Positions 4,643 through 53,159 of a stretch of 64,000 nucleotides of DNA are shown here, piece by piece (the stretch's first letter is position 1; each line of letters opens with the position of its first letter). The stretch covers positions 3,444,001 through 3,508,000 of the forward strand of contig NZ_CP159996.1 in NCBI RefSeq assembly GCF_040703035.1, read 5' to 3'. The notes under the pieces were generated by a model that was not told the origin of the DNA, made no database searches, and saw only the letters and a list, made by a program, of their open reading frames with translations. A program made the translations under genes and the position numbers. The stretch is from Terribacillus aidingensis. Its GTDB lineage: Bacteria; Bacillota; Bacilli; Bacillales; Amphibacillaceae.

Positions 4643-4644
4643 GT

Positions 4645-5802: not shown

Positions 5803-5839
5803 AATTTCTTTTCCTCCTTGGATTGTAAGATATCTTCAC

Positions 5840-6137: not shown

Positions 6138-6142
6138 TATTT

Positions 6143-6170
6143 ATCATAGCAGACTTACAGTCATTGTCAA
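6143..6170 (-). promoter_or_regulatory. Sigma-A promoter of the T-box-serA operon
   Basis: TTGACA, a 16-base spacer and TATGAT on the minus strand, just upstream of the T-box stem I. Confidence 0.75.
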
Positions 6171-6242
6171 TACGTTTTCTAATAATTTTAGCAAATCCGA
6201 TTGTTCGGATTTTGCTGTAATCTGCTTCCTTCTGCCTTTTTT

Positions 6243-6250
6243 GCTATACT
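6243..6250 (+). promoter_or_regulatory. Extended -10 promoter of the Sir2 gene
   Basis: TGCTATACT is an extended -10 element about 35 bases before the start codon. A hairpin (AGCAAATCCGA/TCGGATTTTGCT, 6189-6215) lies just upstream and could be an operator or a terminator remnant. Confidence 0.4.
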
Positions 6251-6284
6251 GGAAAAAATAATAAATGCGCTGGAGGTATGAAAC

Positions 6285-7004: not shown

Positions 7005-7036
7005 CGAGCCCCCTCAGGGAGCTCGCTATTTTTCAT
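7000..7036. terminator. Bidirectional terminator between the Sir2 and MFS genes
   Basis: AAAATAGCGAGC and GCTCGCTATTTTT form a perfect stem around a short loop, with T-runs on both strands. It overlaps both 3' ends. Confidence 0.85.
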
Positions 7037-8463: not shown

Positions 8464-8593
8464 ATAGATGCTCCTTTCCATCTGTCAGATTAAGAATCAA
8501 CTTTTCCCATTATAAGGGTTCTGCTATGAGATTCAAGCATCTTGTTCGTAATAGGCGCATATTATCAAATTAATTAAATTCTGAAAACTAGAT

Positions 8594-8627
8594 ACAAAAA
8601 GAGACCCTCCATATAGAGCCTCTTGTC
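8594..8627 (-). terminator. Second, weaker terminator hairpin beyond rpsR
   Basis: On the minus strand AAGAGGCTC pairs imperfectly with GAGGGTCTCTT and is followed by TTTTTGT. It lies in the 226-base gap before the MFS gene, where no other gene is seen. Confidence 0.4.
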
Positions 8628-8651
8628 ATATACTCAGCTATTAAAATATAT

Positions 8652-8686
8652 AAAAAAAAGCATCATCCTGATGGATGATGCTTTTC
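8652..8686 (-). terminator. Terminator of the rpsF-ssb-rpsR operon
   Basis: Perfect stem AAAAGCATCATCC/GGATGATGCTTTT with a 4-base loop and a long T-run on the minus strand. Confidence 0.9.
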
Positions 8687-8689
8687 TCA

Positions 8690-8920
8690 TTACTCGCTCA
8701 CGTATGGCAATAGAGCCATTTGACGAGAACGTTTGATAGCGATTGTCAATTTACGCTGGTATTTTGCAGAAGTTCCAGTCACACGGCGAGGAAGAATTTT
8801 TCCACGCTCGGAGATGAAACGTCTAAGCAAATCAACGTCTTTGTAATCGATGTAAGTGATGCCATTTGCTGTGAAATAACATACTTTTCTGCGCTTAGCG
8901 CGACCACGACGTGCTGCCAT
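8690..8920 (-). CDS. rpsR: 30S ribosomal protein S18
   Basis: 76-residue bS18, a platform protein of the small subunit that binds as a heterodimer with S6. Diagnostic segments: [30 protein letters not shown] and the RNA-binding [12 protein letters not shown], ending LLPYVSE. Last gene of the rpsF-ssb-rpsR operon, 20 bases after ssb, with GGAGG upstream. Confidence 0.97.
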
Positions 8921-8940
8921 ATCAGATTGCCTCCCTTAAA

Positions 8941-9441
8941 TTAAAATGGTAGATCATCATCGGAAATATCGATCGGTTCACCTTTATCACGGAAAGGATC
9001 TTGGTCGTTATTTCGATTATTGTTATTGTTATTGTTGCTATTGAAATTGTTATTATTGTTGTTGAAGTTCGAGTTCTGATTTTGGTATCCAGAAGAACCT
9101 TGTCCGCCTCCTTGAGAGCCACCTTTGGTCTCGAGGAATTGCACGCTATCCGCAACAATTTCTGTTACATAAACACGATTACCCTCTTGATTATCGAAGC
9201 TTCTCGTTTGGACACGGCCATCTACGCCAACCAGACTTCCTTTGCTCATGAAGTTCGCCAGATTTTCGGCTGGACGTCTCCATACAACACAGTTAATGAA
9301 ATCTGCCTCACGTTCGCCTGACTGATTAGAGAAAGGACGGTTTACTGCTAAGGTAAAGTTGGCAACTGCCACTCCATTTGGTGTGTAACGCAGGTCCGGA
9401 TCCTTGGTTAATCTGCCGACAAGTACGACACGATTTAACAT
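8941..9441 (-). CDS. ssb: Single-stranded DNA-binding protein
   Basis: Essential SSB of replication and repair. The N-terminal OB fold (about 1-110) starts [20 protein letters not shown] disordered linker rich in Asn, Gly and Gln, with long asparagine runs, leads to the acidic tip DISDDDLPF that recruits partner proteins. Length 166 fits SsbA. The Asn codons are mostly AAC/AAT triplets, making a microsatellite-like stretch at 9010-9070 prone to length variation. It sits between rpsF and rpsR, the standard Firmicute operon. Confidence 0.97.
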
Positions 9442-9453
9442 CAGAACCCCTCC

Positions 9454-9744
9454 TTATTTCTCGTCTAGACGAATAGCCATCTGACGAATAATATCATCAG
9501 AGAACTTCGCTTGACGGTCGAATTCATTAATAGCAGCTTCTTCGCCGTTTAGATTAATGACATAGTAGTAGCCATCACGGTAATCGTTGATTTCGTAAGC
9601 AAGACGTTTCTTGCCTTTCTCGTCAACTTTCACGATTTCCGCACCGTTATCAGTTAGGATTCCGTTGAAACGCTCAACTAGAGCAGTTTTAGCTTCTTCC
9701 TCGATATCTGGGCGGACGATGTACATGATTTCGTATTCTCTCAT
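9454..9744 (-). CDS. rpsF: 30S ribosomal protein S6
   Basis: 96-residue bS6: [17 protein letters not shown] start, [19 protein letters not shown] core. First gene of the operon with ssb and rpsR. The leader carries an S6:S18 binding hairpin, so the S6-S18 complex probably represses its own translation. Confidence 0.97.
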
Positions 9745-9763
9745 CCGTTTGCACCTCCTTTTG

Positions 9764-9797
9764 GACTTAACGGCTCTTATCTTTCATAAGAGCAAGG
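9764..9797 (-). promoter_or_regulatory. S6:S18 ribosomal protein leader motif
   Basis: In the mRNA, CTCTTAT pairs with ATAAGAG around a 5-base loop. It is followed directly by an unpaired CCG, and a lower helix (CUUG/UAAG) closes it. The CCG bulge above a short helix is the hallmark of the S6:S18 autoregulatory motif, which mimics their 16S rRNA site. It lies about 20 bases before the rpsF start. Confidence 0.75.
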
Positions 9798-9824
9798 AGT
9801 AATCTTAATTACTCACAATGATGA

Positions 9825-9853
9825 ATTATAGCAAATTATCTGCCGTTAAGCAA
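9825..9853 (-). promoter_or_regulatory. Sigma-A promoter of the rpsF operon
   Basis: TTGCTT, a 17-base spacer and a perfect TATAAT on the minus strand, about 80 bases upstream of rpsF. Confidence 0.8.
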
Positions 9854-9889
9854 GCTGTTTCCACATATTTGCAAGATGAGGATCCGACC

Positions 9890-10990
9890 TTACACGTTGA
9901 AACGGAAATGCATGACATCCCCGTCTTTCACCAAATACTCTTTTCCTTCCAAACGAACTTTCCCACGTTCTTTCGCAACACTCATAGAACCCGCATCAAC
10001 CAGGTCTTCGTAGGAAACTGTTTCCGCACGAATGAATCCTTTTTCAAAGTCACTATGGATGATACCAGCTGCCTGAGGAGCTTTGATACCCATAGGGAAC
10101 GTCCAAGCACGAACTTCTTGTTCACCAGCCGTGAAGTAAGTTGCAAGCCCAAGAAGGCTGTAAGACGCCTTGATCAGCTGATCCAAACCGGACTCCGGAA
10201 TACCTAGCTCTTCGAGGAACATTTCTTTTTCCTCTCCTTCGAGCTCTGCAATTTCCGATTCAATCTTCGCACAGACAACAATCACCTGCGCACCTTCGTT
10301 TGCAGCGAACTCCTGCACTTTTACAAGATTCTGATTGGCAGAAGGATCTGCTACTTCTTCTTCACTCACGTTAGCAGCATACAAGACTGGTTTGCTTGTC
10401 AATAGATGCAAGCCTTTCACAATCTTACTTTGCTCCTCAGTAAATTCCAGCGCTCGTGCTGGCTGTTCGTTCTCTAATCCATCCTTAATTTTGGACAGGA
10501 TCTCTTGTTCTACAACAGCTTCTTTGTCTTTTTGACGTGCAAGTTTTTCCACACGCTGCAGACGTTTGTTGACAGAATCAAGATCCGCAAAGATCAATTC
10601 CAAGTTAATCGTCTCGATATCATCGATAGGATCTACTTTACCGGATACATGCGTAATATTTTCATCATCAAAGCAGCGCACTACGTGAACGATTGCATCC
10701 ACTTGTCTGATGTGTGATAGGAACTGGTTTCCTAGTCCCTCCCCTTTACTTGCACCTTTTACGATACCAGCGATATCGGTGAACTCAAATGCAGTCGGGA
10801 TAGTTTTTTTCGGTTTGACCAGTTCAGTCAATTTATTTAAACGTGAATCAGGGACTTCTACGATGCCGACATTCGGATCGATCGTACAGAACGGATAGTT
10901 TGCAGATTCCGCTCCCGCCTGTGTGATCGCATTGAACAATGTGGATTTACCGACGTTTGGTAATCCGACAATACCTGCTGTTAAAGCCAT
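9890..10990 (-). CDS. ychF: Redox-regulated ATPase YchF (OLA1 type)
   Basis: 366-residue P-loop protein of the Obg family, the same length as B. subtilis YyaF. G1 is GLPNVGKSTLFN and DIAGIVKGASKGEGLG is G3. The usual NKxD is replaced by NVSE (near residue 203), which in this family shifts preference from GTP to ATP. A C-terminal TGS domain (about 283-366) follows a helical region. It associates with ribosomes and stress responses in other bacteria. Start ATG at 10990 gives the family length; an upstream GTG abuts the ribosome binding site. An unusually long leader of about 180 bases precedes it. Confidence 0.95.
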   Translation of the reverse strand: MALTAGIVGLPNVGKSTLFNAITQAGAESANYPFCTIDPNVGIVEVPDSRLNKLTELVKPKKTIPTAFEFTDIAGIVKGASKGEGLGNQFLSHIRQVDAIVHVVRCFDDENITHVSGKVDPIDDIETINLELIFADLDSVNKRLQRVEKLARQKDKEAVVEQEILSKIKDGLENEQPARALEFTEEQSKIVKGLHLLTSKPVLYAANVSEEEVADPSANQNLVKVQEFAANEGAQVIVVCAKIESEIAELEGEEKEMFLEELGIPESGLDQLIKASYSLLGLATYFTAGEQEVRAWTFPMGIKAPQAAGIIHSDFEKGFIRAETVSYEDLVDAGSMSVAKERGKVRLEGKEYLVKDGDVMHFRFNV

Positions 10991-11200
10991 GTAATCTTCC
11001 ACTCCTTAAGTGTCCTGGCCGCTTTTACGTACAGCCGGCCAAAATAGATCTGCTTACTGAACACTCCGCCCAAAGGCAGGGAAGATGGGGCAGTACCGGT
11101 AACTGACTTACGATATATCATGCCAGCTTGCCCTTACTTTGTCCAAGTAAACATACGTACTTCTAGAGTACACTATTCTCTATAAAACAGCAAAATTATG
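10991..11200 (-). promoter_or_regulatory. Long structured leader upstream of ychF
   Basis: A gene-free stretch of 330 bases (10991-11320) lies upstream of ychF. A possible promoter is TTGCTG-17-TACTCT on the minus strand (about 11167-11195). The leader contains TGGCCG/CGGCCA (closest to the gene), TTACTT/AAAGTAA and a longer-range GGGCA/TGCCC pairing. No known riboswitch signature was recognised. Confidence 0.35.
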
Positions 11201-11259
11201 TGTAGATTTCTGCCATTTGGATACGCATTTCTTTCTATAATTGATTTTTGTATATAAAA

Positions 11260-11297
11260 AAAGAAGTCCTTCCGATGACAAGATCGGACAGACTTCT
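11260..11297 (-). terminator. Terminator of the mscS-DUF951 unit
   Basis: On the minus strand AGAAGTC..TCCGAT pairs with ATCGGA..GACTTCT, followed by TTTTTTT. A parS site lies between it and the gene end. Confidence 0.75.
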
Positions 11298-11298
11298 A

Positions 11299-11314
11299 TG
11301 TTTCACGTGAAACG
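11299..11314. promoter_or_regulatory. parS site (one mismatch)
   Basis: TGTTTCACGTGAAACG differs from the Bacillus parS consensus TGTTTCACGTGAAACA only at the last base. ParB (Spo0J), encoded at 14249, should load here and spread. First of three strong sites in the leftward block. Confidence 0.9.
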
Positions 11315-11320
11315 CGTATT

Positions 11321-11527
11321 TTAATTTGTCGGTTCTTCTGCATGCTCCAAAACTTTTTTCATTTTTGTCTCGAATTTTTTTCGAGGAATTAGCACGCTAT
11401 GACCACAGCCTTCACATTTAATCCGGATATCCATTCCCAACCGGATAATCTTCCACCGATTTTCGCCACACGGATGGGCTTTTTTCATTTGTACCACATC
11501 ATTAAGCTGATAGACTTTGTCACTCAC
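11321..11527 (-). CDS. yyzM: DUF951 family protein (YyzM-like)
   Basis: Small basic protein of about 68 residues, conserved at this locus in Bacillus. It begins SDKVYQLNDVVQMKKAHPCG and has a CEGCGHSV motif that with the earlier Cys may bind a metal; the rest is rich in Lys and Arg. Function is unknown, though the fold resembles small nucleic-acid-binding domains. I choose GTG at 11527 because AAGGGGG lies 7 bases before it; ATG at 11533 is too close to the same site. It overlaps the end of mscS by 8 bases, so it is cotranslated with it. Confidence 0.8.
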   Translation of the reverse strand: MSDKVYQLNDVVQMKKAHPCGENRWKIIRLGMDIRIKCEGCGHSVLIPRKKFETKMKKVLEHAEEPTN

Positions 11528-12440
11528 GAGCATTCCCCCTTACTGCACTTTCCTGCATGAGCTCTTCTGCTTCTTGTTTATTATACATGACCAGCCTTGG
11601 AGCTGGAATACTGATATTGCGTTCCAATAGTTTTGTTTTAATACGGTTTCTAGCTTCCCTTGCCACACCAAAATGCTGCATTGGCAAAGTTTCAATGATT
11701 GCCCGCAAAACGATGTGAGACGTTGACAAGGTCTCCACACCTAATAGCTGCGGGGTTGATTGTATCTCAGGATATTCAGCAGGCATTTCCAGCAGCACCT
11801 GCATGATGACCTCTTCTGCTACTTGCAGATTCGCTTCATACGGTACATTGATGTCCAATACTCCCAGACTGTTGTGGACAGAGAAGTTGGTCACTTGTGT
11901 AATATTGCCATTTGGTATGATATGCAGTTCGCCTGTCCAGTTACGAATCTTACATGTCCGCAATCCGATCTCCTCTACATCTCCCCGTACTCCAGCCGTT
12001 TGAATATTATCTCCTACAGAAAATTGGTTTTCGAAGATAATGAAGAAGCCGCTGATAACATCCTTCACTAAGTTTTGTGCTCCGAAACCTATTGCTAAAC
12101 CGGCAACTCCGGCACTTGCAATCAATGCGCCAATGTTTAATCCAAGTTGTGATAACACCATCACAACAGCGGTGAAATACACGACATACGTAATTACATT
12201 TTGGATTAGTTTTTTCAGCGTATTTTCGCGGCGTTCTGATACGAGAGGAGCTTTTAATTTCGCCTTTTCCCTAAAGGAATTATGAAAAGTCCTCTCCACT
12301 ATATTATTGGCTACGCGAGCGACAACCATAGATAATATAATGATCATTACAATCTTTAACACTGCTAATCCAATGGTTGTCCAAAGCTCGGCACTCGTCA
12401 AATAATCGTAAATACTGGTCCATTGCTCCTCTACATTCAT
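11520..12440 (-). CDS. Small-conductance mechanosensitive channel, MscS family
   Basis: 306-residue membrane channel that releases solutes on hypo-osmotic shock. Three N-terminal spans (about 20-40, 80-100, 108-130) end in the pore-lining helix IGALIASAGVAGLAIGFGAQNLVKDVISG, rich in Gly and Ala. The beta domain FQ-SVGDNIQT, GDVEEIGLRTCKIR and IIPNGNITQVTNFS follows, then the alpha/beta C-terminal domain. Overlaps the DUF951 gene and follows the YkvI-type gene by 50 bases. This position beside parAB is seen in other Bacillaceae but not B. subtilis. Confidence 0.9.
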   Translation of the reverse strand: MNVEEQWTSIYDYLTSAELWTTIGLAVLKIVMIIILSMVVARVANNIVERTFHNSFREKAKLKAPLVSERRENTLKKLIQNVITYVVYFTAVVMVLSQLGLNIGALIASAGVAGLAIGFGAQNLVKDVISGFFIIFENQFSVGDNIQTAGVRGDVEEIGLRTCKIRNWTGELHIIPNGNITQVTNFSVHNSLGVLDINVPYEANLQVAEEVIMQVLLEMPAEYPEIQSTPQLLGVETLSTSHIVLRAIIETLPMQHFGVAREARNRIKTKLLERNISIPAPRLVMYNKQEAEELMQESAVRGNARE

Positions 12441-12490
12441 GAAGTACGTATCTCCTCGTCCAGTTGTTTTCTTTATATATTATCAAATTT

Positions 12491-13510
12491 CTATTTCATT
12501 TTGTATCGATTTAGTATTGGGTATATAAGAATGGCGGAGAGGATGTAAAGATTAGCAAAGCCAAAAATCGGGTACATCAAAGCTATCAAGTCTGTAAAAC
12601 CAAGCTGTGTGAGCGGCAGCATAAGCAAAACCAGCACAGCTGCTTGCAGCCAAAGCGGTCCCTTCCATTTTGTTCGAAATCGTGAAACAATACCCAGTAT
12701 TCCCGAGACAGCCGAGGTATAGATAGCAAGCCATAACACAATGCTGATGCCAATAAGTACAATAGAGGGATAGTTTTTCAAAATATAGAACAATGGGATA
12801 TCATAGTGTGGAATTGCATGACTGATATGCATCAAATCATTATTGTATAAGTACGTAAGCGCACCAATGATTAGCCCGCTGCCGATACTCGCAATCCATA
12901 ACTCCCCCTTCCCTTTCATTTGCTTCCCGATTGCACCAATTACAGCTACAACAGGAAGGATATTCAGCGCTGTGAATGGGAATGCCGCTTGCCAATTTGC
13001 CTGTTCACGCCAATCCTGCAGCAGATTGATTTGTTCATGTCTTGTATAGATGATAAGAACAAGAACAAGGCCTCCGACTAGGATAGGAAGGATATAACTA
13101 TTCATCGAAACGACACCCTCTACATTGGATGTGAAAATAAGGACAATCATTAACGCAATGAAGAGAATGCCCAGCCAATTCGGAATCTGATACATCGTTC
13201 CAGTAGCACCGCCAGCAGCAATCATAACAACAGTAACTGTAAAAAGATAGAAAACAATCAACACATCATAAAATGCAGCCAACCTTCTCCCGACAAGCCG
13301 CTCCAGTACCGGAAAGTAATGCGCGCTTCTTTCGGTGAAGCTTATATGCAGAATCACATGACTGCATATCGTAAACAGAACGGTGAAAATGATGATAGCC
13401 AGTCCACTTTCATAGCCAAAAAATTGCCAGATCTCTCTTCCTGAAGCATATCCAGCTCCTATTAATGTTGCCAATATCAAAAACATCCATTTCAGCCCTG
13501 CAGCCCACAT
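12491..13510 (-). CDS. YkvI-family membrane protein
   Basis: 339-residue integral membrane protein with about 10 hydrophobic spans and the N-terminal signature LATLIGAGYASGREIWQFFG, typical of the YkvI family. This family is distantly related to APC/SSS-type transporters; a Gly-rich break in TM1 (GAGYASG) resembles their substrate site. Substrate unknown. ATG at 13510 has GGAGG at 7 bases. In B. subtilis this slot holds yyaD (SpoIIM-like), so the neighbourhood differs. Divergent from yyaC. Confidence 0.8.
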   Translation of the reverse strand: MWAAGLKWMFLILATLIGAGYASGREIWQFFGYESGLAIIIFTVLFTICSHVILHISFTERSAHYFPVLERLVGRRLAAFYDVLIVFYLFTVTVVMIAAGGATGTMYQIPNWLGILFIALMIVLIFTSNVEGVVSMNSYILPILVGGLVLVLIIYTRHEQINLLQDWREQANWQAAFPFTALNILPVVAVIGAIGKQMKGKGELWIASIGSGLIIGALTYLYNNDLMHISHAIPHYDIPLFYILKNYPSIVLIGISIVLWLAIYTSAVSGILGIVSRFRTKWKGPLWLQAAVLVLLMLPLTQLGFTDLIALMYPIFGFANLYILSAILIYPILNRYKMK

Positions 13511-13538
13511 CACAGTCCCTCCAATTTCATATGAACAC

Positions 13539-13568
13539 GTATAGAAAAAGTAGAAAAGCTATATACTA
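13539..13568 (+). promoter_or_regulatory. Forespore (sigma-G/F type) promoter of yyaC
   Basis: GTATA, an 18-base spacer and TATACTA match the forespore consensus GHATR-18-CATNHTA at 11 of 12 positions. About 25 bases before the yyaC start. B. subtilis yyaC is forespore-expressed. Confidence 0.65.
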
Positions 13569-13596
13569 TTACCAATATGTGTATGGAGGATAAGCT

Positions 13597-14190
13597 ATGA
13601 GCCTGAAGAGAATATTTACGAAAAAAAAGGAGTTCCGCTGCGACTATCAAGACCCCCTTCTTATGAGTAAAGCCTATGAAACAATCAGCTCATGGATTCC
13701 TGATGATCGGGAGATAGTCGTCCTTTGCATCGGTACAGATCGTTCAACCGGTGATGCACTAGGACCCATTATTGGTTCATTTCTGACGGAAAAACCATTG
13801 AACAGACTTCAGGTTTACGGGACTCTGGAATCTCCTGTGCATGCTGTCAATCTGGTTGAACGTCTGCAAATGATAGAGGAAAAACATCCAAATGCTTATA
13901 TAATTGCAATTGATGCCTGCTTAGGCAGGACCAGTTCCATCGGTTCTATTATCGTTTCTCCTACACCTCTTCGTCCGGGTGCCGCATTAAAGAAAAATCT
14001 CCCAGCAGTTGGGGATGCCCAAATAACTGGAATTGTTAACGCCAGCGGTGATATGGAGTATTTTGTGTTACAAAATACTCGTTTGCATCTTGTCATGCAG
14101 TTAGCATACAAAATCAGTGCCCTCTTACTTGCTGTCGATCGCAAACAAGTTCCTTTACTGTCACCCGACATAACAGCTGCCGAAAATTGA
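13597..14190 (+). CDS. yyaC: Spore protease YyaC (GPR-related)
   Basis: 197-residue member of the DUF1256/YyaC family, related to the hydrogenase-maturation and GPR germination protease fold. Conserved segments: VVLCIGTDRSTGDALGPIIG near residue 42, VYGTLESPVHAVNL, and AIDACLGRTSSIGSI, with acidic residues (Asp48, Asp53, Asp108 approximately) in the putative active site. It is expressed in the forespore; its substrate is not established. GGAGG precedes the start. It is the only rightward gene in this block, with a parS site just after its stop. Confidence 0.9.
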   Translation: MSLKRIFTKKKEFRCDYQDPLLMSKAYETISSWIPDDREIVVLCIGTDRSTGDALGPIIGSFLTEKPLNRLQVYGTLESPVHAVNLVERLQMIEEKHPNAYIIAIDACLGRTSSIGSIIVSPTPLRPGAALKKNLPAVGDAQITGIVNASGDMEYFVLQNTRLHLVMQLAYKISALLLAVDRKQVPLLSPDITAAEN

Positions 14191-14252: not shown

Positions 14253-15088
14253 CTATTCAATACATTTAAAATTCTTTCCAAATCTTCATCGGAGAAGAAC
14301 TGAATCTCTATCTTCCCTTTTCGCTTACCACGATGAATTGTTACATCTGTTCCGAATTGATTCCGCAGCTGGGATTCAGTCTGAACAAGAAATATATCCT
14401 TTACAGCTTTCTTTTTCTCTGGTTCTGGAAGATTATTGTTCATCTTGATGATGAGCTGCTCTACTTGCCGGACATTCAGCGATTCGTTGCGTATTTTTTC
14501 AACTAGCGGCTGCAATCTCTTTTTATCCTTTAACCCCAATAGAGCGCGCCCGTGACCCATTGATAATTCACCATGATTGATTAAGTCACTAATCTCGGGG
14601 GGCAGCGTCAATAAACGAACAAGGTTCGCTATATGAGATCGGCTCTTACCTAAGCGTTTAGCTAAAATCTCCTGCGTGATATCCAATTCCTTCATCAAAT
14701 TGGAATACGCTTGTGCTTCTTCAATCGGCGTGAGATCTTCCCTCTGAAGGTTTTCCAGCAAGGCAAGCTCCATCATCTTCTCATCATCCAATGACTTGAT
14801 GATGACAGGTACTTTTTTCAAACCGGCTGCTTTTGCTGCGCGGAATCTTCTTTCTCCCGCTACAATTTCATAGCCTTTTATACTCTTACGGACAATGAGT
14901 GGCTGCAGGATGCCATATTCCTGAATTGATTGCGACAATTCCTCAATTGCATCTGCAGAAAAGACTTTGCGCGGTTGATATGGATTCGCCCGGCATTCCT
15001 TGATTGCAATTTCTTGAATCTGATCTTCTTCTTTCATTTCCAATTCTGGAAAGAAAGCATTAAGACCTTTCCCCAACCCTTTGGCCAT
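14249..15088 (-). CDS. parB: Chromosome partitioning protein ParB/Spo0J
   Basis: 279-residue CTP-dependent DNA clamp that loads at parS, spreads and recruits SMC and the replication-initiation regulator ParA. It starts [13 protein letters not shown] (the N-terminal ParA-stimulating peptide), then NPYQPRKVF and the CTP-binding [28 protein letters not shown], the helix-turn-helix [15 protein letters not shown] and a C-terminal dimerisation domain. Overlaps parA by 29 bases, so the two are coupled. Confidence 0.97.
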
Positions 15089-15842
15089 GCGCCATCACTT
15101 CCTTTGCTAAGTCTAAATAAACTTCTGCACCACGCGACTTCGGATCGTAAATAATGATTGGCTGACCATAACTAGGTGCTTCCCCCAACCGGACATTTCT
15201 TGGAATGATCGACTGGTACACTTTATCTTGAAAATATTTCTTTACTTCTTCAATAACTTGAATACCAAGATTCGTACGGGCATCCAGCATTGTCAGCAAT
15301 ACTCCTTCAATCATTAGATGCTTATTCAAATGTTTTTGTACAAGGCGAATCGTATTCAATAGCTGACTTAGCCCTTCTAATGCATAATACTCACATTGAA
15401 CTGGGATAAGGACAGTATCTGCCGCTGTCAGCGAATTCAAAGTCAACAATCCTAAAGAAGGCGGACAATCGATGATGACATAATCATAATTGTCTTTCAC
15501 ACTATCAATAGCCTTTTTCAGACGGACTTCCCTTGAGATCGTAGGCACTAGCTCGATCTCGGCTCCTGCAAGCTGAATAGTAGCCGGAATGACATCCAAA
15601 TTATCAACAGCTGTTGATACAAGGACGTTTTCGGCTTCCATATCTTCGACTAGGACGTTATATACACAATTTTCGACATCTGCTTTGTTTACACCAACAC
15701 CGCTTGTAGCATTTCCTTGCGGATCAATGTCTACTAGCAAAACTTTATTTCCTAAAAAAGCCAGGCAAGCACTCAAATTGACGCTAGAGGTTGTTTTCCC
15801 TACTCCGCCCTTTTGATTTGCTATTGCGATTACTTTGCCCAT
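15060..15842 (-). CDS. parA: Chromosome partitioning ATPase ParA/Soj
   Basis: 260-residue deviant Walker ATPase. [23 protein letters not shown] holds the signature [19 protein letters not shown] and [15 protein letters not shown] are Walker A' and B. With ParB it controls segregation and DnaA activity at oriC. Ribosome binding site GAGGTAGGTG upstream. No clear promoter was found, but an AT-rich 145-base gap separates it from noc, whose terminator lies there. Confidence 0.97.
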
Positions 15843-45854: not shown

Positions 45855-46533
45855 TGGAAGGCTGATGGGATGTCCATTTACGGGAGTGCTGGATAAAGTG
45901 TCCGACTTTCTCCAGAATCGGTTCAATGGACGTATTTGGATTCAGTAAATCATAGTCTGCTATATTCACTCGCAATACCGGACAAGCATTGAAATCATTG
46001 ATCCATTTATCGTAGCGATGGAACATCTCTTCCCAATAGCTGATCGGTGTTTGCTGTTCCATTTCCCGACCGCGCTGCTTGATACGGCTGATGATATGAT
46101 CGAAGGATCCCTCCAAGTAAATCAGCAAGTCTGGATGAGGGAAGTAAGGTGTCATCACCATCGCATCAAAGAGGGAACGGTATGTTTCATAGTCGACCTT
46201 GGACATATTTCCTTCTTCATACGCCATCCGAGCAAAAATACCAGTATCTTCATAGATGGAACGATCTTGTATAAAGCCGCCGCCATATTCGAAAATTCTT
46301 TTTTGCTCTTTGAAGCGTTCAGCTAGAAAGTAGACTTGAAGGTGGAAGCTCCAGCGTTCAAAGTCAGCATAATATTTATCCAAGTAGGGATTTCCATCCA
46401 CTTTCTCAAAGCTCGTCCGAAACTGTAACGCATCTGCCAAGGCTTGTGTCATTGTCGATTTTCCGACACCTACAGTACCTGCAATGGTGATTACACTGTC
46501 TGCAGGTATATGGTATTTCTCTCTAAGGTTCAT
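45850..46533 (-). CDS. dck: Deoxyadenosine/deoxycytidine kinase
   Basis: 227-residue deoxynucleoside kinase. P-loop ITIAGTVGVGKSTMTQAL, FERWSFHLQVYFLAERFKEQ, the DRS motif in GGGFIQDRSIYEDTGIFA, and the LID Arg cluster SRIKQRGREME. Close to B. subtilis Dck by these segments. Overlaps dgk by four bases (ATGA), so the two are cotranslated. Confidence 0.92.
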   Translation of the reverse strand: MNLREKYHIPADSVITIAGTVGVGKSTMTQALADALQFRTSFEKVDGNPYLDKYYADFERWSFHLQVYFLAERFKEQKRIFEYGGGFIQDRSIYEDTGIFARMAYEEGNMSKVDYETYRSLFDAMVMTPYFPHPDLLIYLEGSFDHIISRIKQRGREMEQQTPISYWEEMFHRYDKWINDFNACPVLRVNIADYDLLNPNTSIEPILEKVGHFIQHSRKWTSHQPSK

Positions 46534-47171
46534 GATGATGTTACTCCTTTATCCAAGTGAGAGGAGATCCTGTCACAAATATACTTCCAATCCTGCTCGT
46601 TCTTCACAAAATCCAACTCATCCCCGCTTAATCGAAGCACAGGTATGTCTGGGTTTTCTTGTTCAAAACGATCCATGAAGGTTTGGTAATCAGCAGATAG
46701 CTGCTTTAAGTAGTCCGGCTGGATATGCTGTTCTTCTTTTCGGTCACGCATTTCGATCCGTTCAAGCAATGTTTCCAAGCTGGCATCCAAATAGATGACC
46801 ATATTAGGCAGCGCGATATCCTCTGTAAGAATAGAGAAAATCTTGCTGTATTTATCAAACTCCGGTGCAGCAAGTGTACGCTGGGCAAAAATCATATTCT
46901 TTGCGATATGATAATCTGCGACCACCGGTTGATTCTGTGAAAGATAGTCCTTGCGAATATCATTCAGCTGTTTGTAACGGTTCGTTAAAAAGAACATTTC
47001 CAGCTGAAAGCTCCATTCCTCGATATTCTCATAAAATTTGCCTAGGAACGGGTTTTCTTCTACAATCTCCTTCAGCAGTTCATACTGAAAGTGTTCTGCG
47101 ATTCTTTTAGCCAATGATGTCTTTCCGACACCGATTGGACCTTCCACTGCAATAAATGGCAGCTCGTGCAT
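46530..47171 (-). CDS. dgk: Deoxyguanosine kinase
   Basis: 213-residue deoxynucleoside kinase of the same fold. P-loop AVEGPIGVGKTSLAKRI, EEWSFQLEMFFLTNRYKQL, VVADYHIAKNMIFAQRTL (DxH in place of the DRS of Dck, as in B. subtilis Dgk) and the LID MRDRKEEQ. GGAGG upstream. Salvages purine deoxynucleosides. Confidence 0.92.
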   Translation of the reverse strand: MHELPFIAVEGPIGVGKTSLAKRIAEHFQYELLKEIVEENPFLGKFYENIEEWSFQLEMFFLTNRYKQLNDIRKDYLSQNQPVVADYHIAKNMIFAQRTLAAPEFDKYSKIFSILTEDIALPNMVIYLDASLETLLERIEMRDRKEEQHIQPDYLKQLSADYQTFMDRFEQENPDIPVLRLSGDELDFVKNEQDWKYICDRISSHLDKGVTSS

Positions 47172-47281
47172 GATGTATCCTCCAAACTCAAACGTTGTAT
47201 GGCAAATAAATATAGTTTACCATAGAAGGGCTATTGCTTCGATACAGTGAAGGAAGAAACTAGTGGAAAATGCGACAGACT

Positions 47282-47309
47282 TTGCAAGCTTTCCCGATTC
47301 AGTTATAAT
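47282..47309 (+). promoter_or_regulatory. Promoter of tRNA-Arg
   Basis: TTGCAA, 16-base spacer and TATAAT, 12 bases before the tRNA 5' end. Confidence 0.75.
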
Positions 47310-47321
47310 ATAGTATGTCGT

Positions 47322-47394
47322 GGCTCCGTAGCTCAGGGGATAGAGCATCGGTTTCCTAAACCGTGTGTCGCAAGTTCGAATCTTGCCGGGGCCG
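47322..47394 (+). tRNA. tRNA-Arg (anticodon CCU), integration target
   Basis: 73 bases: acceptor GGCTCCG/CGGGGCC, D-loop AGCTCAGGGGAT, anticodon loop TTCCTAA with CCT, T-arm GCAAG-TTCGAAT-CTTGC. CCA not encoded. Reads AGG. Its 3' 46 bases are duplicated at 51663, marking insertion of a mobile element that restores the gene. Confidence 0.94.
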
Positions 47395-47395
47395 T
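47349..47395 (+). repeat. attL, 47-bp direct repeat
   Basis: Begins CGGTTTCCTAAACCG, the anticodon stem-loop and a near-palindrome, which is the likely recombinase core. Runs through the T-arm to one base past the tRNA. Confidence 0.93.
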
Positions 47396-47428
47396 CTGTA
47401 TACCACTATGTAGCGGTTTAAGCTGTTT

Positions 47429-47456
47429 CTCTCTCGCGTTAGCTAAACCGAAGGGA
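47429..47456 (+). repeat. Subterminal repeat, left copy
   Basis: CTCTCTCG-GTTAGCTAA-CCG-AGGGA is shared imperfectly with 51578-51606 near the right end, in the same orientation. A candidate recombinase arm-binding site. The rest of 47396-47551 holds only short hairpins (ACGGT/ACCGT and AACGT/ACGTT) without T-runs. Confidence 0.4.
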
Positions 47457-47551
47457 TACGGTTTCATACCGTCCTCATATTACCGAACATTAACGTCATT
47501 TTACGTTCCTTATCCGTATTGGAATAAGTTACGAAAGGTGGCGTTTTTGTT

Positions 47552-48511
47552 TTGCCCTCAAACAGTCGCAAAGGTAAACCCATTGTTACTACTCGTAAGG
47601 CACGAGAAATTAGTGACTACATTCCTTTGCAATCAACAATAGAAGAAGCATTCAAAAGCTTTCTATCGCTAAAGAAAAGCCTTGGCGTTCGGAATCGAAC
47701 TGTTTCTGACTATCATCATTTGATGGATTACTTCGTCTCATGGCTAAATGTAAGTCATCCGGAAATAGGAATGATAGATGAGATTAGTACAGCAATTATC
47801 CGAGAGTACCTTCTTTACTTACGAGAGGAAAGGTATAACGACCGTACAAAGAGTGTAGGGTTATCGCCATTCACTATAAACGTGCGGATACGCTTCTTGA
47901 AGACGTTCTTCAATGCGTTATACAAGGTAGAAATCATTAATAAGAACCCGGCTAGGAACATTCAGCTTATGAAGGTCGATGAAGACGGGCTAGAACCTCT
48001 CACAGATGAAGAAGTCAACAAGCTTATAAGCGTTCCGGATGAACGGTATTATGCCCAGTTTAGGGACTTAGTAATGATGTATCTCATGTTGGATACTGGT
48101 ATGCGGATAAACGAAGTATGCGAACTTGAAAATCATGATATTGACTTCAAGACGAGGGCTATAATCTTGCCCGCTGCTAAGAACAAGAATCGTAAGCCAA
48201 GAATCCTCCCACTTTCAAATCAAGTAGTAAAGCTACTTTTGGAGTTGGTGGCAGAAAACAAAGCTAACTTTGATACGGAGTATGTCTTCGTTTCGAATAT
48301 AGGTACACGGTACAACCCTAATTCTTTTCGGAAGAGGTTGAACAACTACAAAGACATAGCAGGTATAACGAAGCGGGTTTCACCCCATGTATTTCGTCAT
48401 ATGTTTTGTAGGAACTACATTCTGAATGGTGGCGATATATTCACGTTACAAAGGATTGTAGGACATGCAGACATATCTACAACACGTAAGTACATCCAAC
48501 TACTTAACTAG
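47552..48511 (+). CDS. Tyrosine recombinase (integrase)
   Basis: 319 residues. N-terminal SAM-like DNA-binding domain (about 27-125), catalytic domain with TGMRINEVCEL (Arg185), the H279-x-x-R282 of SPHVFRHMF, His305 in GHADIS and nucleophile Tyr314 in TTRKYI. All catalytic residues are present, so it is likely active. TTG start behind AAAGGTGG; no ATG fits. Reads away from the tRNA and integrates at its anticodon/T-arm region. No excisionase is recognised. Confidence 0.93.
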   Translation: MPSNSRKGKPIVTTRKAREISDYIPLQSTIEEAFKSFLSLKKSLGVRNRTVSDYHHLMDYFVSWLNVSHPEIGMIDEISTAIIREYLLYLREERYNDRTKSVGLSPFTINVRIRFLKTFFNALYKVEIINKNPARNIQLMKVDEDGLEPLTDEEVNKLISVPDERYYAQFRDLVMMYLMLDTGMRINEVCELENHDIDFKTRAIILPAAKNKNRKPRILPLSNQVVKLLLELVAENKANFDTEYVFVSNIGTRYNPNSFRKRLNNYKDIAGITKRVSPHVFRHMFCRNYILNGGDIFTLQRIVGHADISTTRKYIQLLN

Positions 48512-48551
48512 AACCAATAACTAGAACCATATAACAATAACCAATAACAAG

Positions 48552-48581
48552 AGGGAAGGGGATTACACCCCTTCCTTTTAC
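48552..48581 (+). terminator. Terminator of the integrase gene
   Basis: GGAAGGGG/CCCCTTCC with a 6-base loop and TTTTA. Preceded by a short A/C-rich stretch with repeats of AACCAATAAC. Confidence 0.85.
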
Positions 48582-48650
48582 CATATTAGCGAATTAAATG
48601 AGGTTGTTTACAATACAAGAGGATTAACATCGCAATGATAATATTCCATT

Positions 48651-48659
48651 TGATATAAT
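48651..48659 (+). promoter_or_regulatory. Extended -10 promoter of the cargo operon
   Basis: TGATATAAT (TGn plus perfect TATAAT) 27 bases before the first cargo start. It separates cargo transcription from the integrase. Confidence 0.6.
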
Positions 48660-48685
48660 TGGTAAAAAATGAAGGAAGAGTTAAA

Positions 48686-49486
48686 ATGAACAATCAAACC
48701 ATTGAGATTTTATCTGCAGTTAAGACTGGATTGATGGATGCTTATATTAGGTTTATAGATGAAGCCGTTTATTGGGATATTGTTTCAGATGAAGATTATC
48801 GTACAGCAAGAAGAATCATTAGAACTTTATGCGAGAAAGTGGGCATGGAAGTACCTAATTTTGTAGAGGAAAGCCTTACAGTAGAGGAGTTTTGTAGATA
48901 CTTAAGTCAAGAGAGTTATGGAGGGTACGGTGATAATGCGTTAGAAATTACAGCTTTGTTTAACAAGCTAATTTCCTATCTGGACGATAATATGTATGAG
49001 GTTCAGATTATTAAGGTTGAAAGTGATATCCCGAAAGAATTGAAGTTCGATAGTATTATAGATGACTTAATGAATTGTGAAACAAGAATAGACGTTGGTG
49101 ATTATTCTGGGGCAATTACTTCAGCGCGTTCAATGGTTGAGGGAGTATGTAAGGAGATATTAATAAAATGTGGTGTTAAGGAGATTAGCTACAACAGTGT
49201 ACCTAGTTTATTTGATAAAGTGAGAAAGGTTTTGAACTTAGACCCAAGTGATGAAAGCTTAGATAAGCCTTTGAAGCAGATTATCAGTGGGTTAAACAAG
49301 ACCGTAGGGGGACTAAATGAGATTAGAAACAAGGTTGGGGACGGGCATGCGGGTAGAAGAAGACCTACTCTTCATCATGCAGTACTAGCGGTAAACGCTG
49401 CAAAAACAATTACAAATTTTCTGTTCCATACTTTGGAGTATCAAAAAGAAAAAGGTACCATCGCTATAGTAAGTGAGGAGAGATAA
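48686..49486 (+). CDS. Abortive infection family protein (Abi_C domain, HEPN-like motif)
   Basis: 266 residues. The C-terminal half (about 140-255) fits the Abi_C (abortive infection C-terminus) pattern: ITSARSMVEGVCKEILIKCG, SVPSLFDKVRKVLNL, LKQIISGLNKTVGGLNEIRNKVGDGHAGRRRP and a closing helix VNAAKTITNFLFHTLEY. The R214-x6-H221 motif RNKVGDGH resembles the catalytic pair of HEPN ribonucleases. The N terminus (1-130) is helical and unrecognised. ATG 48686 follows GAAGGAAGAG; an upstream TTG would overlap this site. Followed by the next gene with 1 base between stop and ATG. Toxic RNase role is inference. Confidence 0.8.
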   Translation: MNNQTIEILSAVKTGLMDAYIRFIDEAVYWDIVSDEDYRTARRIIRTLCEKVGMEVPNFVEESLTVEEFCRYLSQESYGGYGDNALEITALFNKLISYLDDNMYEVQIIKVESDIPKELKFDSIIDDLMNCETRIDVGDYSGAITSARSMVEGVCKEILIKCGVKEISYNSVPSLFDKVRKVLNLDPSDESLDKPLKQIISGLNKTVGGLNEIRNKVGDGHAGRRRPTLHHAVLAVNAAKTITNFLFHTLEYQKEKGTIAIVSEER

Positions 49487-49487
49487 G

Positions 49488-50627
49488 ATGACAGTAGATA
49501 AAGATTTATTGTATTTAAAAGATGCACTAAGTAATAAAACACTTAAGAAACTCAGTAAAATTCCAAAGAAGTGTTATAAGTACGCACTGGTAGCAGTTTT
49601 TCTTAATATCATTAACAGAAAGCACGTTACTAGAGGTCAAGCAACGAATCTAAAGATAGTAGACGGTATACGAAATTACCCAAAGCTTTATAGCCAATCT
49701 AATTTGGATAACATTAGTGATACAGTAGTTGAGACACTAAAAGCAACAGGATTCTATAACGCCGATAAAGAAGAGACTATTGATACTACTTTCCAATTAT
49801 TTAGAGATATGGTTGATACTATTTCTAAGGAAAGTGCTTTCTTGATAAGAGTTGGGGCGTTAAGCGAACTCATTGATATAGAGTACTTACGACGCTTTAA
49901 TAACAGTCCAAATCTCCAACCCCATCATTTAATTGATATTAGTCTAATGAATGGAATTACGCCAACCTTTCCTGAGTTTTTTCCATATTCGGATTTAGTT
50001 AACATGTGGAATATATACCTTGATAAGAAGGAGGAGTATAAGCAGAAAATAGCAAGTGGTAATATTCCAATAACACAACGGACTAGTAAACCAGAAGTCA
50101 GGAGAATCGTCTATGAGATAGAAGCATTACTTAGGATGCTGCACATTACGTCAGTTACTTTTGTGGAATCCTACCTATACTACATATTCTACAATTTAAA
50201 GGAAAGTAAGTACCAGACAGAAGATAAAAAGGTTGAGAAACTTCTAGGGTTTAGGAAAGTAGAAGATGAAGAAATACTTAAGAATATTATAAGAAGAGAG
50301 TTTATCCGGGATAATCAAGGAGAATTCAATGATTTAGTTAAAAAATATCATGATTTTAATCAAAAAAGAAATCGTTTTATACACGTTTCAGCCTTTCCGG
50401 ACGAAAAGGATGCTTCTGAGTTAATGCACTTGTACACTACTGGTTATCATTACATCATCGAAGGCGTAAAAGATTGTATTGACTTAGTAAATACAATAGA
50501 TACTAGATTGCCTACCAAATTGAAGGTATTACATTGGTGGAAATCAGTAAAACATCCAGACTTTGATAAAGAAGAAAAAGGCAATATGGTCGGTTCTGGT
50601 AATGTTATTTTAGGTAGAAAATTTTAG
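49488..50627 (+). CDS. Unknown protein with HEPN-like R-x4-H motif
   Basis: 379-residue soluble, mostly helical and highly charged protein that I do not recognise. Toward the C terminus, a helix (ALLRMLHITSVTFVESYLYYIFYNL, about 213-237) and KRNRFIHVS (R294-x4-H299) resemble the HEPN RNase signature R-x4-6-H. N-terminal part (1-60) is basic, with TRGQATNLKIV. ATG 49488 follows GAGGAGA and starts 1 base after the Abi_C gene stop, indicating coupling. Likely the partner or second effector of the Abi_C protein. The match rests on a short motif only. Confidence 0.65.
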   Translation: MTVDKDLLYLKDALSNKTLKKLSKIPKKCYKYALVAVFLNIINRKHVTRGQATNLKIVDGIRNYPKLYSQSNLDNISDTVVETLKATGFYNADKEETIDTTFQLFRDMVDTISKESAFLIRVGALSELIDIEYLRRFNNSPNLQPHHLIDISLMNGITPTFPEFFPYSDLVNMWNIYLDKKEEYKQKIASGNIPITQRTSKPEVRRIVYEIEALLRMLHITSVTFVESYLYYIFYNLKESKYQTEDKKVEKLLGFRKVEDEEILKNIIRREFIRDNQGEFNDLVKKYHDFNQKRNRFIHVSAFPDEKDASELMHLYTTGYHYIIEGVKDCIDLVNTIDTRLPTKLKVLHWWKSVKHPDFDKEEKGNMVGSGNVILGRKF

Positions 50628-50647
50628 GATGTAAAGGAGAGAATACA

Positions 50648-51184
50648 GTGTCAAAAAACAAGGACTTTATTTACTGCATGATTATTATGACGCTTCTTTT
50701 AATAGGGGTATTTACCTTTTTCTATGGAGGAAGAGATGACATTGTTTCTCACATGGGATTCGGAGGTACAGTAGTTTCCATACTTTTAGCAGTTGTAGCA
50801 ATCATATATTCATTTTATCAAAGTAGCACTTATGAGAATGCAAATGCAAAGTTAGATGCATCAGCAAGTCAAATTCAAGAAGCAGCTAATAATGTTTCCG
50901 TAGTTAAAGAAATACAACCTATGCTTAATGAATTTAAAGAAGAGGTAAGAGTATTAAAAGAGGGAATTTCCAACGTTAAAGAGATTACTGGTAGGGTAGA
51001 TACTGGAATAATTGCATTGAAAGACGATATTTCAAAAAGTTTGATTTCAAACAGCAAAAGTGAAGATAAAAATCATAGTAGTAAACAAGTCCACGAAAGT
51101 TTCTTTCTGGATTTTCTCACTATATCAAGTCCGATACACACAATAACTACTCTAATTTGTTACAAGAGTTACATAAATAGATAA
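50648..51184 (+). CDS. Two-TM coiled-coil protein, probably disrupted
   Basis: 178 residues from GTG 50648 (AAAGGAGAG upstream). Two membrane spans (about 8-26 and 38-58) and a cytoplasmic coiled coil (about 62-130). After about residue 150 the frame becomes hydrophobic and atypical (ESFFLDFLTISSPIHT). The -1 frame from about 51100 instead gives a polar, helical stretch ending SNLLQELHK at a TAG (51178-51180). The next ORF (51188) is in the original frame directly after the TAA. This suggests a frameshift and/or premature stop in a once longer protein. Probable membrane partner of the system. Confidence 0.6.
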   Translation: MSKNKDFIYCMIIMTLLLIGVFTFFYGGRDDIVSHMGFGGTVVSILLAVVAIIYSFYQSSTYENANAKLDASASQIQEAANNVSVVKEIQPMLNEFKEEVRVLKEGISNVKEITGRVDTGIIALKDDISKSLISNSKSEDKNHSSKQVHESFFLDFLTISSPIHTITTLICYKSYINR

Positions 51185-51187
51185 AAA

Positions 51188-51484
51188 GTGGATATTAAGA
51201 AAAGTATCATGTTTTCATATGAAACGGAACATACGGGCGAAAATAGCAAACTGATATCGGAAGGTCTAGCAGAAGAGTTTAGGTTACCAACTTTTGTTTC
51301 TATCACACTTCTTAATCAATTAGGGTTTCTATCTTTCGAGGAAAGTGATAGTAGAGATGAAATAAAAATAAACGATATTAGTCCTAGATTTGTGGATGCT
51401 ATAGTTAAGTATATAGAGTTTATAAAAAATGATGCGAGTCCGGAAAACTCGAGGTTTAAATATGTTGTTGAAAGTTGGTTTTAG
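51188..51484 (+). CDS. Unknown small protein, perhaps the C-terminal part of the preceding gene
   Basis: 98 residues from GTG 51188; no ribosome binding site is convincing for it or for ATG 51209. It is in the same frame as the two-TM gene, separated only by TAA. Content looks like a real soluble domain: GENSKLISEGLAEEFRLP, TLLNQLGFLSFEE and FVDAIVKYIEFIKND, vaguely winged-helix-like. Either translationally coupled or the broken-off C-terminal domain. Confidence 0.5.
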   Translation: MDIKKSIMFSYETEHTGENSKLISEGLAEEFRLPTFVSITLLNQLGFLSFEESDSRDEIKINDISPRFVDAIVKYIEFIKNDASPENSRFKYVVESWF

Positions 51485-51577
51485 ATAATAGGTTGCTTTA
51501 CATAATTTAATGGGTTACCTTATAATTGCTATAACAAACGGATAGTCAGAACGTAATACCTATCAGAGAACAACATC

Positions 51578-51606
51578 CTCTCTCGTTGTAGCTAACTCGG
51601 TAGGGA
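51578..51606 (+). repeat. Subterminal repeat, right copy
   Basis: CTCTCTCGTTGTAGCTAAC followed by TCGGTAGGGA resembles the left copy at 47429. The stretch 51485-51662 has no gene. Confidence 0.4.
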
Positions 51607-51662
51607 ATCATTGTCCTTAATAGGGTAAGGCGTTAAATGAACGGAATAAAGACAGCCTTATG

Positions 51663-51709
51663 CGGTTTCCTAAACCGTGTGTCGCAAGTTCGAATCTTGC
51701 CGGGGCCGT
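51663..51709 (+). repeat. attR, 47-bp direct repeat
   Basis: Exact copy of 47349-47395; the displaced 3' portion of tRNA-Arg, not a functional tRNA. Confidence 0.93.
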
Positions 51710-51722
51710 TTGAAATATAGTT

Positions 51723-51757
51723 TAAGCCACAGCCTAAAAGGGCTGTGGCTTTTTTAA
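51723..51757 (+). terminator. Original terminator of tRNA-Arg, displaced
   Basis: AAGCCACAGCC/GGCTGTGGCTT with TTTTTT, 14 bases past attR. Before integration it would have followed the tRNA directly. It also overlaps the 3' end of the ger operon on the other strand. Confidence 0.8.
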
Positions 51758-51915
51758 AATTTATAAAGCAGGAAGGGACTTGCGATAACCATAATGATCA
51801 AGCAGATTACAGCTACCATTCCTTTTTTATTATTGGCTTTATAAAGCGAGTAGCCAAACAAACAAGTATAGCCAGTGACAAAGAGTACCATGAGCGTCAT
51901 ATAGAAAGTTTGCAT
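51754..51915 (-). CDS. Small membrane protein, putative germinant receptor D subunit
   Basis: 53 residues with two membrane spans (MQTFYMTLMVLFVTGYTCLFGYSL and a second after the NNKKG turn, VAVICLIIMVIASPFLLY). ATG overlaps the gerC-type stop (TGATG), with AAGGTG 8 bases upstream, so it is the fourth cistron of the ger operon. Small two-TM D-subunit genes accompany many GerA-type operons and modulate germinant response. Too short for most gene finders. Assignment rests on size, topology and position. Confidence 0.7.
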   Translation of the reverse strand: MQTFYMTLMVLFVTGYTCLFGYSLYKANNKKGMVAVICLIIMVIASPFLLYKF

Positions 51916-53159
51916 CAATCCCGCACCTTCCTTAAATCCGATTCCCGCAATAACTTACCAAACTCCAGGCTTCTAACCTTAACATGCAACCTCACATTGG
52001 CATTCGGATAAATCTTGTTCGACCAGTCTGCCTTTTCATAGTCCTTGATCGTAAGGAACTTGTTTCTAATGTGCAGGGACCAGTAGAAGGGTTCCAGCTT
52101 ATATTTCTCCTGTGTTTTCTTGATGAATTTTTCTCCTTCTTCTTGCAATTGTTTCTGCAGCGAATCATGCAGGATGTCCCTGTTTTTCGAATTGATCATA
52201 TAATTTCGAGTGCTTGGTACTGCAAAGATATTCATATGCAGACTTACATACACATCGATATTTGTCTTGCCTGTAGGCTTGTAGTCAATCTTTACTTTTA
52301 CTTTGTCCGCTTGTACACGAGCTGACAAATCGAAACCAGGACTTAATGGATCTGTGTAACTCGCTATAATATCTTGCTGGGGCAGCGTTGTATCCAGCAT
52401 CAAGGAGAAGCGTGTCTCTTCCCCTGTCAATGTATCAATCATCTGGCCTTCCTTAAACACTGCTGATCCAATGAACTGGGTAGCGTTTCCTCCTTTTATG
52501 TTTGCTTCACCAGCTTTGTAATTGTCTTCTGCACCGTACTCTTCTTTAGGATCTTTTTTCGTAGTAGCAAATGGTGCAATAAAGAGATCTGCATCGCCTT
52601 CGGTAATCTGGAAGAACCGGACCAATGGTGCATCTGGAATAACGCCTGTTTCTTTGGCACGATCAAGCATATATTGAAAATACTTGTGCGGGCGGGACTC
52701 CAGTTTTGGTTTAGTAGTTCTTATAAATTTCTCAGCCTTCTCCTTACTGATAACCAACTGTGCATTAAGTTTCAAATCAATAATGCTTGGTGCCGTTTGC
52801 ATCAAATGGATAAACTTTTTGGAACGAGCCAGTTTTTCGGAAACAATTACAACACGCACTTGATCCAGCGAAATTTCTTTTGCAACCGATACATTGGCAG
52901 TATTCGTAGCAGAAAGAAAGTCGGTACCTAAAACACTGACTACCTCTTGGGGTGGCTCTGGGGTAGAAGGACCTGAAACAGTACTGCCTACTTCAGGGTT
53001 GGCAATTTCAAATGTGAAACGGAATACATCTTCACTCTCTGTCTTATCAACCCCAATACTGATGACGTATGCCTGTTCTTCTAATTCTTTACGGTCAAAG
53101 CAGCCACTCAAAAGGACAGCCGTCTGTATAAGCAGCATCAATATGAGTAATTTCTTCAT
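51915..53159 (-). CDS. Germinant receptor C subunit, Ger(x)C family lipoprotein
   Basis: 414-residue lipoprotein anchored in the inner spore membrane. Signal MKKLLILMLLIQTAVLLSGC with lipobox LSGC, then FDRKELEEQAYVISIGVDK (family N-terminal block) and the C-terminal domain. Partner of the B and A subunits encoded upstream. Overlaps gerB by 4 bases. Confidence 0.93.
   Translation of the reverse strand: MKKLLILMLLIQTAVLLSGCFDRKELEEQAYVISIGVDKTESEDVFRFTFEIANPEVGSTVSGPSTPEPPQEVVSVLGTDFLSATNTANVSVAKEISLDQVRVVIVSEKLARSKKFIHLMQTAPSIIDLKLNAQLVISKEKAEKFIRTTKPKLESRPHKYFQYMLDRAKETGVIPDAPLVRFFQITEGDADLFIAPFATTKKDPKEEYGAEDNYKAGEANIKGGNATQFIGSAVFKEGQMIDTLTGEETRFSLMLDTTLPQQDIIASYTDPLSPGFDLSARVQADKVKVKIDYKPTGKTNIDVYVSLHMNIFAVPSTRNYMINSKNRDILHDSLQKQLQEEGEKFIKKTQEKYKLEPFYWSLHIRNKFLTIKDYEKADWSNKIYPNANVRLHVKVRSLEFGKLLRESDLRKVRD

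Follow-up and report, generated by a model that had tools for sequence, protein, structure and literature searches.

In the genome of Terribacillus aidingensis (3.58 Mb, a single contig), a 4.3-kb insert lies within a tRNA-Arg gene. We analyzed it within a 64,000-nucleotide stretch of contig NZ_CP159996.1 (positions 3,444,001 to 3,508,000), here called the window, and coordinates given without a locus name are those of the window. Between two attachment repeats the insert holds the open reading frame (ORF) of a tyrosine recombinase (the integrase), an AT-rich, co-directional cargo (genes 2, 3 and 4) and otherwise only short overlapping ORFs. A preliminary description had read it as a compact, satellite-like element in which an intact integrase accompanies one candidate new defense operon. 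The features are as follows.

47321..47396, + strand: tRNA-Arg gene (anticodon CCT; ARAGORN), the target, whose 3' part serves as the left attachment repeat
47349..47395, + strand: left attachment core, 47 nt, a perfect repeat (repeat search)
47552..48511, + strand: tyrosine recombinase, 319 aa (PF00589, E 1.3e-38), ending after the catalytic-tyrosine stretch STTRKYIQL with LN and a stop
48501..48502, no strand: deletion join with a 2-nt overlap; on its left an integrase like that of the sister-species genome G003, on its right a segment that lies 10.6 kb further on in G003
48503..48574, + strand: what is left of the ancestral element to the right of the join; it includes a G+C-rich hairpin at 48554-48575 (flagged as terminator-like on the - strand only)
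48651..48659, + strand: extended -10 element TGATATAAT, candidate cargo promoter (consensus match only)
48686..49486, + strand: gene 2, AbiJ-like protein of 266 aa with a C-terminal Abi_C domain and an invariant R214-x6-H221 (Pfam, PADLOC, alignment)
49488..50627, + strand: gene 3, 379 aa, HEPN-like family with an invariant R294-x4-H299 (alignments, predicted model, fold matches)
50648..51184, + strand: gene 4, two-transmembrane (2TM) and coiled-coil protein, its first 178 aa, ending at an in-frame TAA
51188..51484, + strand: ORF of 98 codons behind that stop, in the frame of gene 4 and at the position of its relatives' C-terminal region (weak match to genome G324, E 0.033)
51514..51662, + strand: right-end segment common to the G003 element (window 51514-51715 matches G003 locus L071 at 15010-15210, 84% identity)
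51663..51709, + strand: right attachment core, 47 nt (repeat search, and continuity of the joined flanks in relatives)

The element is a tRNA-Arg insertion with the expected target duplication. The direct repeat (47349-47398 and 51663-51712, spacing 4314) is 50 nt long with one mismatch, and its first 47 nt are perfect; the next longest repeats in the region reach only 27 nt at 70-78% identity. When the left flank with the tRNA gene is joined to the right flank behind the second repeat, one continuous alignment with small indels results in 8/8 element-free genomes of the genus, namely the same-species genome G406 (L102) and G001, G002 and G004-G008 (L003-L008 and L010). It is this uninterrupted site that identifies the element as an insertion. 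Among the genus genomes compared, only the sister species G003 (L009) has an occupied site. Thus, both the perfect 47-bp duplication of the tRNA-Arg 3' part that had been reported to bracket 4.3 kb and the clean empty site anticipated in relatives are borne out.

Comparison with the element of the sister species

G003 carries an element of about 13.9 kb (L071, 1291-15204) in the same tRNA-Arg gene, with attachment cores at 1291 and 15158, and the ends of the window element are shared with it. Positions 47201-48502 of the window match L071 1143-2444 at 90% identity, and 48501-48574 match 13030-13104 at 96%. These two collinear matches jump from 2444 to 13030, so that the window lacks about 10.6 kb that the G003 element has, and the join is sharp. 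Beyond a differing cargo slot the two elements match again, first in gene 4 (50736-51007, 75%) and then at the right end (51514-51715).

The integrase reads the same event from the protein side. It is 93% identical to its G003 counterpart over residues 1-317. Behind the catalytic-tyrosine stretch, 22-30 residues follow in all ten aligned relatives and two in the window, these last two being the product of the join (the alignment had 16 entries; a motif filter removed L087 and L095-L098, which left ten rows besides the window). An insertion in G003 would be unable to supply a conserved integrase tail, and we infer on this ground that the deletion occurred in the lineage of the window. Given the collinear matches with their jump and the tail of the relatives, the comparison indicates that the window element derives, by an internal deletion of about 10.6 kb, from a satellite-like element resembling that of G003. 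The window integrase is probably impaired. The recombinase can thus no longer be called intact, since its C-terminal tail is lost at the join; "compact" holds for the size of the element, but the smallness is the outcome of deletion.

The part of the G003 element that the window lacks codes for a protein of 84 aa, an Eco57I-type methyltransferase and repressor-like, terminase-small-subunit-like (phrog_7344, weak, E 0.0013), HNH/endonuclease VII-like and DNA-binding/replication-initiation-like proteins. The ancestor of the window element may have had all of these genes. No capsid or large-terminase gene was seen by eye among the 18 ORFs of the G003 element, 11 of which were searched against libraries, and a terminase-small-subunit-like protein occurs in 6/6 related elements tested (E 1.3e-3 to 6.5e-8). 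At the position of genes 2 and 3 of the window, G003 has an FRG protein (PADLOC PDC-S15, E 5e-46) on the other strand. The ORF list of the window element holds no regulator, replication or packaging (terS) gene between the repeats. What it shares with phage satellites and phage-inducible chromosomal island (PICI)-like elements is a site-specific integrase, here truncated, and attachment repeats in a tRNA gene. "Satellite-like" is therefore apt for the G003-type ancestor but not for the window element, whose packaging, replication and regulator genes are gone.

We consider it likely that the insert is a deletion remnant of a satellite-like element, a stranded cargo slot with two intact, separate abortive-infection genes and an interrupted 2TM gene. 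The comparison shows that the deletion, about 10.6 kb by the measure of G003, joined the cargo side of the element to the integrase just behind the catalytic tyrosine of the latter. With it went the tail of the integrase and the core, which in G003 comprises the regulator-like, terminase-small-subunit-like, HNH and replication-like genes. The truncated integrase may excise poorly or not at all. As it is probably impaired, the cargo would stay in place in the chromosome.

Alternatively, the insert could be a working minimal island, in which the tailless integrase still recombines or a second integrase helps, and the deletion is a form of streamlining. The reading frame runs uninterrupted to the catalytic tyrosine and beyond, with the close identity to G003 noted above, the 47-nt repeats are still perfect, and the genome has four further integrase-domain matches. 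However, the tail that the integrase has lost is present in every aligned relative, its last two residues here arose at the join, and no excisionase-like gene was noticed in the element. We regard this alternative as unlikely.

Several further elements of Bacilli-type genomes (L072, L073, L075, L079 and L087) have terminase-small-subunit-like proteins and varying defense-type cargo. Both L073 and L079 have, by eye, a protein of about 420 aa (phrog_2467 for L073) and another of about 490 aa. A small ORF of 81-84 aa stands behind the integrase in L071 (2512-2766; no PHROG match for this G003 copy) and L072 (3767-4012) and is absent from the window. The ORFs of the relatives' loci were listed with a greedy filter at 60-75 aa.

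The flanks of the insertion site also differ. The left flank (46530-47395) is 98.6% identical to same-species G406. The right flank (51710-53159, by eye a spore-germination-type gene) is 94% identical to G001 and only 76% to G406, and an allele replacement adjoining the tRNA gene on this side is probable.

The cargo genes

The cargo genes are co-directional, with 1 nt between genes 2 and 3 and 20 nt between genes 3 and 4. Their G+C content (48575-51484) is 0.335, against 0.405-0.478 in 2.9-kb stretches outside the element. A simple scan finds sigma-70-like sites in the region no commoner than in shuffles (13 versus a mean of 16.1). A promoter at 48651-48659, where the consensus match TGATATAAT lies, is therefore a plausible candidate. 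The AT-rich, co-directional arrangement described earlier stands, while its own extended -10 promoter is retained as a candidate.

Gene 2 is of a known kind and implies no new mechanism. It matches Abi_C (PF14355) at E 1e-19, with 70.8 bits against a gathering score of 24, and PADLOC AbiJ at E 1.6e-19 over residues 118-248, in agreement with the Abi_C assignment made before. R214, N215, D219 and H221 are invariant in 9/9 aligned members, and the HEPN motif R-x4-6-H is kept. AbiJ-NTD domain models gave no listed match up to E 1. A gene-2 match occurs in 15 other genomes, and larger stretches were retrieved for 8 of them. Five of the 8 gene-2 loci (L072, L073, L074, L083 and L084) also contain a relative of the window integrase, and in them the gene-2 relative sits within a few ORFs behind the integrase. 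There are 37 plasmid records with a gene-2 relative, and 11 of the 12 listed are named "abortive infection family protein".

Searches of Pfam, NCBIfam, PADLOC and PHROGs gave no informative match for gene 3. Its R294 and H299 are invariant, with N or D after the R, in all 11 distinct family members of two alignments (A1 with 6 rows, A4 with 8). The predicted model has a confidence (pLDDT, predicted local distance difference test) of 82. The top fold matches of its C-terminal helical domain are HEPN toxins, with modest scores, and the helical N-terminus of about 145 residues has no clear fold match. We therefore lean toward a HEPN-type fold for the predicted structure, and the second R-x4-H protein of the preliminary description gains in standing.

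The gene-3 family is rare. Within the order, 4 of 299 genomes carry a member, own included; a profile search of the class found it in 1 of 348 genomes, which is the own genome, and a pattern scan of a species-genome collection, with narrow patterns, gave three loci. As a rule its relatives stand alone, and they are carried by prophages, satellites and a plasmid. Among the ORFs listed, gene 3 adjoins a late-activator-like gene in 4/4 viral contigs found. In L089, L090 and L091 (the latter two near-identical) it stands between the late-activator-like gene with a 180-aa integrase-like protein and HNH/terminase genes, and in L092 it flanks the activator from the other side and is encoded on the opposite strand. 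PHROGs support the activator, integrase-like, HNH and large-terminase labels for L089 and the activator and large-terminase labels for L090; the remaining labels in L089-L091 were assigned by likeness in the ORF lists. L079 and L087 have gene 3 inside satellite-like elements with terminase-small-subunit-like proteins, and in L087 (Rossellomorea aquimaris) a PADLOC PDC-S64 gene (9145-9951, E 5.6e-19; DUF3644 E 1.4e-4, below the cut-off) directly precedes it. Our tentative view, held at somewhat less than even confidence, is that gene 3 represents an HEPN RNase family of Bacilli, unnamed so far and mostly stand-alone, with which phages and their satellites oppose rival phages. The slot by the late activator may be a defense-gene hotspot common to prophages, one that feeds satellites.

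On a Lysinibacillus fusiformis plasmid (L037), a gene-3 relative shares a 17-kb stretch with genes of the Fic, E2/UBC, Mov34/MPN and nucleotidyltransferase types; by annotation this set resembles a cyclic-oligonucleotide-based antiphage signaling system (CBASS).

Gene 4 is interrupted by the in-frame TAA at 51182-51184 and is probably non-functional in its present form. Over its first 178 codons it resembles 2TM/coiled-coil proteins found in G003, G324, G155, G091 and viral contigs. The G003 copy is likewise interrupted, at a different place, and uninterrupted copies occur elsewhere, such as the 294-aa one of G324. Relatives stand just upstream of terminase genes in 2/5 viral loci (L103 and L107). 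Matches to SLATT_5 (E 0.011) and SLATT_4 (E 0.0043) are below the curated cut-offs. The protein type given for gene 4 was right, but the gene is not intact.

In L076 (8264-10181), a 2TM relative lies beside a DUF4917/SIR2-like protein (PDC-S21, E 8.7e-95), and this region also has, by eye, a large helicase-like and a groEL-like ORF.

One system or separate modules

Relatives of genes 2, 3 and 4 occur in 16, 4 and 15 of the same 299 genomes, own included. Outside the own genome their co-occurrence is no more than expected by chance (genes 2 and 3, 0 versus 0.15 expected; genes 2 and 4, 1 versus 0.70; genes 3 and 4, 0 versus 0.14), although at such low counts the comparison has little power. Among 28 loci, two cargo families meet in just one, the G324 locus L072 (families of genes 2 and 4), whose two members stand at 5461-6165 and 13227-13745, about 7 kb apart; genes 2 and 3, or 3 and 4, are together in none. 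All 8 gene-2 loci are free of gene-3 relatives, and the 12 gene-3 loci (10 distinct places) are free of gene-2 and gene-4 relatives. The 28 loci include pairs from the same place (L078/L086 and L080/L089) and the near-identical L090/L091. The stretches of L083, L085 and L091 span just 6.6-9.5 kb, which covers only part of the surroundings. Because there is no co-occurrence beyond chance and only one locus with two families, we favor a cargo of independent modules, which travel separately and came together in one slot. The search for the gene set in other contexts therefore speaks against the proposed single operon of three defense proteins, within the limited power that few relatives allow.

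The reading of genes 2, 3 and 4 as one dedicated anti-phage system of three components, on a compact satellite-like element that still works, is very unlikely to be right. The shared strand, tight spacing and common low G+C would suit such a system, as would the position of gene 3 behind another defense-type gene in L087 and the presence of genes 2 and 4 in one region of G324. Against it are the chance-level co-occurrence, the near-absence of loci with two families, the interruption of gene 4 in both the window and G003, and the gene preceding gene 4 in G003, which is on the other strand. Equally improbable is a toxin-antitoxin-like pair of genes 2 and 3 in which one HEPN-type protein restrains the other, for although the 1-nt spacing suggests coupled translation and a DUF3644-like gene precedes gene 3 in L087, the two genes occur without each other in all 8 gene-2 and all 12 gene-3 loci, and both proteins have a catalytic-type motif.

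In the deletion remnant that we prefer, genes 2 and 3 would be co-transcribed from a promoter near 48651 and act as two separate abortive-infection modules. From what is known of the family (Anantharaman et al. 2013, PMC3710099), each may be a HEPN RNase, possibly kept inactive by its N-terminal half until a phage cue. Once released, it would cut RNA, and infected cells would cease growth. A defense function of both genes is suggested by family and context.

In kind the element is an ordinary one, now decayed; the part that merits following up is gene 3. These findings correct the tempting reading as a compact new three-gene system, and show a route by which defense cargo can become stranded in a chromosome, through loss of the satellite core by deletion. 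Gene 3 represents a testable family that none of the libraries searched names and for which there is a clear catalytic-motif prediction. Its recurring position in phage genomes could be mined for more single-gene defenses.

Relation to known systems

Gene 2 resembles AbiJ/Abi_C proteins in its Abi_C domain, its R-x6-H motif and a size near that of the PADLOC AbiJ model (281 aa), and differs in having no listed N-terminal domain model. For gene 3, the closest comparison is with HEPN RNases and toxins, among them HepT of MntA-HepT and other Abi HEPN families. It shares with those treated in PMC3710099 the R-x4-H motif and a polar residue after the R, and HEPN toxins are the best matches of its C-terminal helical domain. 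It differs in its length of 379 aa and its unmatched helical N-terminus; none of the library families matched, and no nucleotidyltransferase partner was seen. Gene 4 is like SLATT-type 2TM effectors in its two transmembrane helices and coiled coil, but its scores are under the curated cut-offs and the gene is interrupted.

Compared with phage satellites and PICI-like islands, the window element has only integrase and cargo left. The G003 relative is closer to them, with its tRNA site, tyrosine integrase, repressor-like protein and weakly terminase-small-subunit-like protein. As in the defense hotspots of P4-like phage satellites (PMC9122126), this relative has a cargo slot with defense-type genes.
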